From: Pelagibacterium sp. 26DY04
GTDB lineage: Bacteria; Pseudomonadota; Alphaproteobacteria; Rhizobiales; Devosiaceae
Assembly (NCBI RefSeq): GCF_031202305.1
Contig: NZ_CP101731.1
Coordinates: forward strand, 868,001 to 932,000
DNA length: 64,000 bases
Direction of reading: 5' to 3'
Shown piece after piece: positions 30,242 to 33,200 of this stretch (position 1 is the first letter of the stretch; every line of letters begins with the position of its first letter). The translations under genes and the position numbers were made by a program. A model generated the notes under the pieces. The model searched no databases. It was not told where the DNA came from and saw nothing but the letters and a program-made list of their open reading frames with translations.

Positions 30242-33200
30242 ATGACCGACACGCAACCGGGCGCGACAACCGAGCGCGACTATTCCGACACCCTGTTCCT
30301 GCCGCAGACCGATTTCCCCATGCGGGCCGGTCTGCCCCAGCGCGAGCCCGAATGGCTCAAGCGCTGGGAGGATATGGACCTCTATAAGCTCCTGCGTGAG
30401 CAGAGCCGGGATCGTGAAAAATTCACCCTTCACGACGGCCCCCCTTACGCAAATGGCAACATCCATATCGGCCACGCGCTCAACAAGACCCTCAAGGATC
30501 TCGTCTCGCGTTCCATGCAGATGCTGGGTTACAACTCGGCCTATGTGCCGGGCTGGGACTGCCACGGCCTGCCCATCGAGTGGAAGGTCGAGGAACAATA
30601 CCGCGCCAAGGGCAAGAACAAGGACGAGGTGCCGATCAACGAATTCCGCGCCGAATGCCGCACCTTCGCCGAACAGTGGATCGACATCCAGCGCGAGGAA
30701 TTCAAGCGTCTTGGTGTCATGGGCGATTGGGCCAACCCGTATCTCACCATGAGCTACGACGCCGAAGCCACCATCGCTTCGGAACTGATGAAAGTCGCCA
30801 TGAGCGGCCAGCTCTATCGCGGATCGAAGCCCGTGATGTGGTCGGTGGTGGAACGGACGGCACTGGCCGAAGCCGAGATCGAGTACCAGGACTACGAGTC
30901 CGACGCGATCTGGGTGAAATTTCCGGTGACCGAAGGTGCCCATACCAACGCTCATGTCGTCATCTGGACCACCACCCCCTGGACCATTCCTGGCAACCGC
31001 GCCGTCTCCTATTCCTCGCGCATCGACTACGGCCTCTACGAGGTCGAAACCGCGGAGAACGATTTCGGCCCGCAGCCGGGCGAAAAGCTGATCTTCGCCG
31101 ACAAGCTGGCCGAGGAAAGCGCCAGGAAGGCCAAGCTCACCTTCAAGCGCCTTGCCGATGTGACGGCCGACGACCTCGCCGCGATGACCCTCCACCACCC
31201 GCTGCGCGGCCTCGCCGGCGGCTACGAGTTCCTCGTGCCGCTCCTCGATGGCGAGCACGTCACCGACGATGCGGGCACCGGCTTCGTCCATACCGCCCCT
31301 TCCCACGGCGCCGACGACTTTGATGTCTGGCAGGAAAACGCCCGCGATCTGCAGGCCCGCGGCATCGATCCTGCCATCCCCTTCACCGTCGACGACGCCG
31401 GCTTTTACACCAGCGCCGCCCCCGGCTTCGGCCCCGACGCCGAAGGTGGCGCTGCGCGCGTCATCGACGACAAGGGCAAGAAGGGCGATGCCAATGACCG
31501 CGTCATCAAGGCCCTGATCGCCGCCAATAACCTCTTCGCCCGGGGGCGGTTGAAGCACCAGTACCCCCATTCCTGGCGCTCGAAAAAGCCCATCATTTTC
31601 CGCAATACTCCCCAATGGTTCGTCTATATGGACAAGGACCTCGAGGGCAAAACGCTCACCGCAGGGACTCCTTCTCCCCTCGGGGGAGAAGGTGCCCGAA
31701 GGGCGGATGAGGGGGGAGCCACAGGCTCCGCCTCCGCGACCAACCTTACCTCTCCCTTCGGGGGAGAGGTCGGCGCGAATGCGCCGGGTGAGGGGGCCTT
31801 GGCTACGGGCACAGATACCCTGCGCACCCGCGCCCTTGCCGCCATCGACGCCACCAGATTCGTCCCCCCGCAAGGCCAGAATCGGCTCCGCTCGATGATC
31901 GCCGATCGCCCCGATTGGGTCCTCTCGCGCCAGCGCGCATGGGGCGTTCCCATCACCGTGTTCGTCCACAAGGACAGTGGCGAAATCCTCAAGAACGAGA
32001 AGGTCAATCACCGCATCGTCGAAGCCTTCATGGATGAAGGCGCCGACGCCTGGTTCGCCGAGGGTGCCAAGGCCCGCTTCCTGGGCAATGACGTTTCCGA
32101 TCACGAGAACTGGACCCAGGTCACCGACATTCTCGACGTGTGGTTCGATTCCGGCTCCACCCACGCCTTTGTGCTGCGCAACAAGCAGAAATGGCCGGAT
32201 CTGAAGTTCCCCGCGTCCATGTATCTCGAAGGCTCGGACCAGCATCGCGGCTGGTTCCACTCCTCGCTGCTCGAAAGCTGCGCCACCAATGGGTTCGCGC
32301 CCTATGAATCCGTTCTGACCCATGGCTTCACCATGGACAAGAACGGCTTCAAGATGAGCAAATCCTTGGGCAACACCATCGCGCCCCAGGACATCATCAA
32401 GAAGTTCGGCGCCGATATCCTGCGCCTTTGGGCGGCGACCATCGACTATGCCGAGGATCACCGCATCGGCGATGAAATCCTTGCCAACACCGTCGAGATG
32501 TATCGCAAGATGCGCAACTCCTTCCGCTGGCTGTTGGGCAATCTCGCCCATTTCAAGCCCGAGGAAGCCATCGCCTTCGCCGACATGCCCGAACTCGAGC
32601 AGCTCATCCTGCACCGCCTCGCGGTGCTGGATGAGGAAGTTCGCGCCGGCTACCGCGCCTATGACTACAAGCGCGTGGTGACCACGATCGCCAATTTCAT
32701 GAACCTCGAGCTTTCGGCCTTTTATTTCGATATCCGCAAGGACGCGCTCTATTGCGACCCGATCTCCTCGATCAAGCGCAAGGCCGCGTTGACGGTTCTC
32801 GATCAGCTCTATTCCTGTTTGACCGCCTGGCTCGCTCCGGTGCTGGTCTTCACGATGGAAGAAGTCTGGCTTGAGCGGAACCCGGGCGACACCTCGAGCG
32901 TCCACGCACGGGTTTTCCCAAATGTGCCGGCTGAATGGCGCAACGATGCGCTGGCCGACAAATGGGCCAAGATCAGAACCGTCCGCCGCGCCGTGACTGC
33001 GGCGCTCGAAATCGAGCGCAAGAACAAGGTGATCGGTTCCTCGCTCGAGGCGGCCCCAGCGGTCACGATCGGCGATCCCGAGCTTGCAAAAGCCCTCGAA
33101 GGGCAGGATTTGGCCGAGATCTGCATAACCAGTGCACTAAACTGGCACCTAGACCCGTCGATCATCGGCACAAAGGCTGATCTCGACCCCTCTGTGCCGG

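Follow-up and report, generated by a model that had tools for sequence, protein, structure and literature searches.

The isoleucyl-tRNA synthetase (IleRS) gene ileS of Pelagibacterium sp. 26DY04 (G000), located in the window analysed here (64,000 nucleotides of contig NZ_CP101731.1), contains two palindromic repeat elements that lie in frame within the coding sequence of the enzyme, and the linker holding them is one instance of a recurrent acceptor site. Most probably, we are dealing with a largely neutral capture of mobile DNA resembling repetitive extragenic palindromes (REPs) by tolerant linkers, which recurs in other Alphaproteobacteria with repeat families of their own. The original prediction, made from the letters of the window, had recognised the two in-frame elements at the right place and was borne out in this respect; it had taken them for a single case, and this part did not stand.

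The frame of ileS, starting at an ATG 12 bases inside the listed open reading frame (ORF), matched the NCBIfam model TIGR00392 with 794.7 bits (cut-off 621.4) and stays open across both elements (Table 1). The HIGH and KMSKS motifs are intact, as had been claimed for the catalytic motifs, and conceptual translation gave the two peptides of 16 and 15 letters as predicted. The build of each element is the same: TCTCCC and GGGAGA flank a short loop and are followed by a second hairpin and by TGAGGGG, and the core has 42 bases in element 1 and 45 bases in element 2, in a window of 63% GC. They occupy the linker between the strand ending in FVYMD, at the end of the editing part, and the helix DTLRTRAL of the catalytic part. 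This loop after the editing domain has about 8 residues in relatives and 60 in G000; linkers of 7-12 residues prevail among the 120 nearest IleRS proteins, in agreement with the predicted addition of about 50 residues to a short family linker.

Table 1. Features of the ileS region and of two other genes with in-frame repeats in Pelagibacterium sp. 26DY04. Plain positions are those of the window.
Feature	Position	Strand	Basis or remark
ileS, isoleucine--tRNA ligase, 1036 aa	30242..33352	+	ORF list; TIGR00392; PF00133 and PF08264 matches
Extra linker segment, residues 473-522, predicted disordered	31658..31807	+	AlphaFold2 pLDDT; short linkers in relatives
Repeat element 1, two adjacent hairpins and GGATGAGGGG, read as 15 residues	31671..31714 (core 31673-31714)	+	
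Repeat element 2, two adjacent hairpins and GGTGAGGGG, read as 16 residues	31749..31795 (core 31751-31795)	+	
Intergenic family member, first palindrome enlarged to 22-base perfect arms (30047-30093)	30048..30116	+	fold z -7.48
cobN, three in-frame copies at two loops	L169:1892-5881 (G000:C1:390381-394370)		
Biotin-dependent carboxylase subunit gene, linker preceding the biotinyl domain holds two repeats	L188:5808-7820 (G000:C1:1603801-1605813)		

Structure prediction with AlphaFold2 (40 sequences) yielded a best model with a mean predicted local distance difference test score (pLDDT) of 79.3, the other four reaching 63.8 to 74.9. In the best model, the extra segment stays below 50 and has no secondary structure, lying between strand 455-461 and helix 527-537; seven other, shorter stretches are also below 50. 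The best solved match is IleRS 8c9f, with a template modelling score of 0.76 by query and 0.84 by target. Mapping on a solved enzyme, as had been proposed, placed the loop after K418 of Staphylococcus aureus IleRS 1ffy, an enzyme devoid of a linker at this point (positions in 1ffy were counted by hand from the alignment). Compared with the Pelagibacterium genome G010 over 975 codons, the core of ileS revealed pN 0.081, pS 0.395, dN 0.086 and dS 0.56, and the resulting dN/dS of about 0.15 indicates that the enzyme is kept under purifying selection. These values, the predicted disorder and a near-identical pair of filled and empty proteins described below agree with the earlier statement that the insert is tolerated within the protein. 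An assembly artefact, against which the original prediction had cautioned, or an annotation artefact is hardly credible: repeats are the usual trouble spots of assemblies, but this genome is a single contig, and several other genomes carry in-frame inserts at the same place.

The elements had been described as an intergenic type of repeat, and the genome revealed a whole family of them. Across 3,887,506 bases, the strict pattern TCTCCCN{3,30}GGGAGAN{5,30}TGAGGGG, which diverged copies escape, gave 160 matches (88 forward and 72 reverse, a few of them overlapping each other), compared with 0 for the same pattern read backwards as a control. We examined 131 separate strict copies out of these matches, taken from the window and 38 further stretches, and 124 of them lie outside any gene callable as conserved, for example the copy between a putative ribF (read from the upstream ORF) and ileS (Table 1). 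The remaining seven fall into ileS (2), cobN (3) and a biotin-dependent carboxylase gene (2), where genic position was judged by ORF, third-position GC and eye, so that further intragenic copies may have been missed. Many long ORFs over the repeats were discounted as shadow ORFs or upstream extensions on the basis of their length, their third-position GC and visual inspection. Neighbouring copies less than 200 bases apart (n=54) included 25 inverted pairs of the -+ type and 15 of the +- type. A strand bias of the copies along the chromosome, apparent among the 100 matches listed, was dropped, more reverse copies being present in the stretches fetched. Among the 124 copies outside the three genes, the forward frames are open in 71, 66 and 72 and the reverse frames in 124, 124 and 121; the commonest subtype (21 of 131) carries a stop in the frame used by ileS, in which both ileS copies are open. 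Only a copy of suitable subtype and length, and in a suitable frame, would thus survive in a gene.

Within the genus, 12 of 13 Pelagibacterium genomes matched the strict pattern, with 1 to 183 matches each. The ileS element of G010 (C1:300085-300132) is identical over 48 bases to C1:305-352 and C1:131568-131615 of that genome, which suggests a young copy or a recent gene conversion. A shorter subtype was found in ileS of G007 (C1:461810) and a diverged relative of element 2 in G006, and the remaining nine genomes, including G001 as the richest in copies, have short ileS linkers.

Beyond the genus, alignment of related IleRS proteins, the check suggested at the outset, displayed short linkers in most relatives and in-frame repeat inserts in some. 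In a taxon-spread set of 61 genomes of the order, the linker was readable in 57 (G050 was unreadable; G015, G019 and G020 had no match across the junction), eight of which carry repeat peptides there (G000, G006, G007, G010, G024, G025, G026 and G037). A text rule for repeat peptides had picked out ten genomes and produced false positives, and G052, G059 and L041 were removed from the counts by hand. When 8000 IleRS proteins were scored and ranked by the region away from the insert, repeat peptides were seen by eye in 16 of the 120 nearest, including the short insert of P0147, which carries no tree label. The longer linkers of P0149, P0171, P0172, P0181, P0203 and P0220 do not look like repeats and may be decayed ones. 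A search by the linker region itself listed 120 proteins, mostly with repeat peptides; as such a search favours inserts, it gives no frequency. Five of the best 80 named loci, from at least 589 found by N-terminal patterns, have repeat-derived inserts in this loop: Tianweitania populi (L031), a Rhodoplanes metagenome-assembled genome (MAG; L044), Devosia oryzisoli (L048), a Devosia MAG (L052) and Sphingomonas changbaiensis (L105). The IleRS of Pelagibacterium halotolerans (P0010) also bears an insert, at SPGGEGWGEGAFATNSGP. In Bradyrhizobium, 12 additional residues with a small palindrome (CCGGGCAAGCCCGG) are common to two IleRS linkers (L049:11366-11437 and L068:1723-1794) and absent in L046, L047 and L094; they perhaps represent another repeat capture.

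The repeats filling this loop belong to different families. The Sphingomonas insert matched its own genome 64 times, the Rhodoplanes genome twice and weakly, and G000, G037 and Tianweitania not at all, while the Rhodoplanes insert matched its own genome 80 times and gave no match in any of the four others tried (40 candidates were scored for each of these two own-genome counts). The Tianweitania insert matched its own genome 23 times and G000 0 times, with short weak matches in G037 (5), the Sphingomonas genome (9) and the Rhodoplanes genome (1). All own-genome counts include the ileS copy and, palindromes matching on both strands, are not copy numbers. Different families at one loop imply different events, and the repeats occur there in both orientations. 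This diversity also bears on the idea that the hairpins act in DNA or messenger RNA, for instance by holding up ribosomes where two domains meet. In favour of such a role, the fold of element 2 is better than those of its shuffled versions (z -3.35), but that of element 1 alone is not (z -1.01), some of the pairing in element 2 of G006 is lost by eye with the frame kept, and a function of this kind fits poorly with both orientations and unrelated families; we regard it as very unlikely.

The best indication that an insert may come or go with little other change is provided by two near-identical proteins. Identity extends to 985 of 993 aligned residues between P0005, whose 36-residue linker contains an element 2 peptide, and P0127, whose linker has 8 residues; the difference in length at the loop amounts to 28 residues (compared as proteins, metagenome records among them), and the insert therefore looks dispensable. 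Their linker ends also differ (KDLEGKTL against KDLGKGAD), so that a recombinational exchange of linkers is no less possible than a clean gain or loss of the insert. In an IleRS tree of 310 rows built without the linker, the repeat label, assigned to 109 rows including the false one of P0181, required at least 35 changes, compared with 79-97 in 20 shuffles; the trait thus follows descent while changing often. In the unbiased set, 114 rows were long enough for the tree, with 16 labelled (that of P0181 falsely) and 10 changes, and the 24 nearest proteins needed at least five changes, where change counts on a tree do not separate gain from loss.

Judging by adjacent copies and by subtype changes within a single linker, a linker once occupied seems to be prone to further change. 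It is possible, and would be compatible with neutral capture, that a first repeat in a tolerant linker draws recombination or further insertion and turns the place into a persistently variable site, an idea we hold tentatively. It would account for the two elements side by side in G000, for element 2 in G006 and an element-1-like repeat in G010, for P0002 with the element 2 peptide beside another one, and for the prefix KDLEG[KQ]T shared by most insert-bearing linkers, but it leaves the lineages with unrelated families unexplained.

Clear repeat peptides were also seen by eye in at least 14 of 207 aligned proteins at a second loop of IleRS, which belongs to the editing domain, follows residue 332-336 of P0121 and falls near D304 of 1ffy by alignment; the Tianweitania enzyme has copies at both loops. 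In the IleRS of G037 (L116), repeat-like peptides were seen by eye at three places, near the N-terminus, in the linker and in the anticodon-binding part. A third variable loop around residue 230 of P0121, following WVKFPV, varies strongly in length and sequence and does not appear to be repeat-derived.

Among the copies examined in two Pelagibacterium genomes, those found internally and in frame were restricted to three genes, namely ileS, cobN and a carboxylase gene; the 56 matches of G007 represent 55 separate copies, all examined, of which four are genic (ileS 1, cobN 3). We compared CobN over 30 loci, four of them partial or unread, and repeat-like peptides were seen by eye at the first loop of G000, G001, G007, G010, G013, G018 and G024 and at the second loop of G000, G001, G002, G003, G007, G018, G024 and partly G006; strict DNA copies were seen for G000, G007 and G002 only. 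The carboxylase gene was rejected as a further hotspot, since its close orthologues in G002, G004, G005, G006, G007, G009 and G012 lack the insert, leaving G000 as a single case. Selection could in principle keep such loops filled, disordered spacers improving or tuning domain movement, editing or folding and repeats being their handiest source, which would suit the different families at one loop in several lineages and the restriction of the genic copies of G007 (4 of 55) to ileS and cobN. However, the IleRS linker lacks a repeat peptide in 49 of 57 genomes and in 104 of 120 proteins, near-identical proteins exist with and without the insert, and its sequence and length are not conserved, so that we consider this explanation unlikely.

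Under neutral capture, a short, non-autonomous REP-like palindromic repeat would have been copied into the ileS linker by some mobilising enzyme. Most landings in genes would disappear, and copies would persist in a small number of flexible linkers within long enzymes, provided that the frame is kept, that no stops occur in the frame used and that a disordered peptide rich in Gly, Pro, Ser and Glu comes to lie in a length-variable loop. Separate captures would have occurred in other Alphaproteobacteria at the IleRS linker, the second IleRS loop and CobN. As copies would be gained, lost or replaced often, the site would differ between near relatives. We infer transposition as the source of the copies, and the insert is presumably translated and probably close to neutral. 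Three observations weigh against this account. Firstly, a search for the RAYT-type transposase (PF01797) gave 0 matches in the G000 genome, the same search being positive in 5 of 14 control genomes. Secondly, the concentration in so few genes exceeds what neutrality alone would lead one to expect. Thirdly, the prefix KDLEG[KQ]T occurs in nine of ten insert-bearing and in none of 14 insert-free proteins among the 24 nearest, so that part of the pattern is explained equally well by new insertion and by the loss of an older insert or a linker exchange between species. A bolder extension, to which we give a rather small chance, holds that unrelated REP families across Alphaproteobacteria preferentially land or are kept in the two IleRS and two CobN linkers, either because the mobilising machinery chooses such targets or because disordered spacers are selected for.

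The coding palindromes as such are of a known kind. Rickettsia palindromic elements (RPEs) were reportedly described by Ogata in 2000. Like the G000 elements, RPEs are in-frame palindromes within conserved proteins, and two papers place them at solvent-exposed positions (PMC2229807, PMC3767692); a guanylate kinase bearing an RPE is reported to be translated and active (PMC2229807). Their length is given as 105-146 bp in one of these sources and tabled as 68-144 in the other, so that RPEs of about 70-150 bases differ from our single cores of 42 and 45 bases, compared here by description. An RPE-7 in rickettsial isoleucyl-tRNA synthetase is listed in the Rickettsia japonica paper, which also weighs insertion hotspots (PMC3767692); the likeness to our case is one at the level of the enzyme. 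The parallel with RPEs drawn in the original prediction is therefore supported for the manner of tolerance, while by structure the elements are not RPEs.

REPs inside ORFs, including unnamed tRNA synthetases of Xanthomonas oryzae, Erythrobacter litoralis and Sphingopyxis alaskensis, are reported in PMC3733652, where recB of two Xanthomonas species was hit by different REPs at about the same site and other genes of one category at different sites, in contrast to the one IleRS loop hit here in several lineages. The same source characterises CGTC REPs by a single stem of 8-9 bp that starts with AT pairs and adjoins an unpaired end, which reads CGTC, TGTC or CCTC; on inspection of the folds, the G000 elements have two stems and no such AT pairs. 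The Rhodoplanes insert does contain CGTCATTCC. Neither core has GTAG on either strand, and, with no RAYT match in the genome, the family does not resemble GTAG REPs with their transposase. It is REP-like in the general sense, and similar to BIMEs, in having many palindromic copies, mostly outside genes and often in inverted pairs, the missing RAYT match being the difference (background on REPs in PMC12306157 and PMC5082802). The best literature matches held no report of an IleRS repeat hotspot outside Rickettsia, supplements and subscription papers lying beyond that search, which leaves absence unproven; the convergence of unrelated families on one IleRS loop appears to be new.

Ever since RPEs were reported in Rickettsia, it has been an open question, in part because replicates were lacking, whether in-protein palindromes amount to neutral litter or to a useful raw material. 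An IleRS loop repeatedly filled with unrelated repeats, together with a near-identical empty partner, offers natural replicates for enzyme assays and for dating the gain and loss of repeats, and thus natural tests of how proteins tolerate stray sequence. If the linkers were indeed preferred sites, REPs would repeatedly supply essential enzymes with new segments. For annotators, the case is a warning that segments of this kind derive from repeats and do not necessarily represent functional domains.

At gathering thresholds, Rfam revealed only one tRNA over the window. The G000 repeat also forms an array in direct orientation (window positions 9877-10437) with a period of 93 bases and strict copies at 9926, 10019, 10205, 10298 and 10391.
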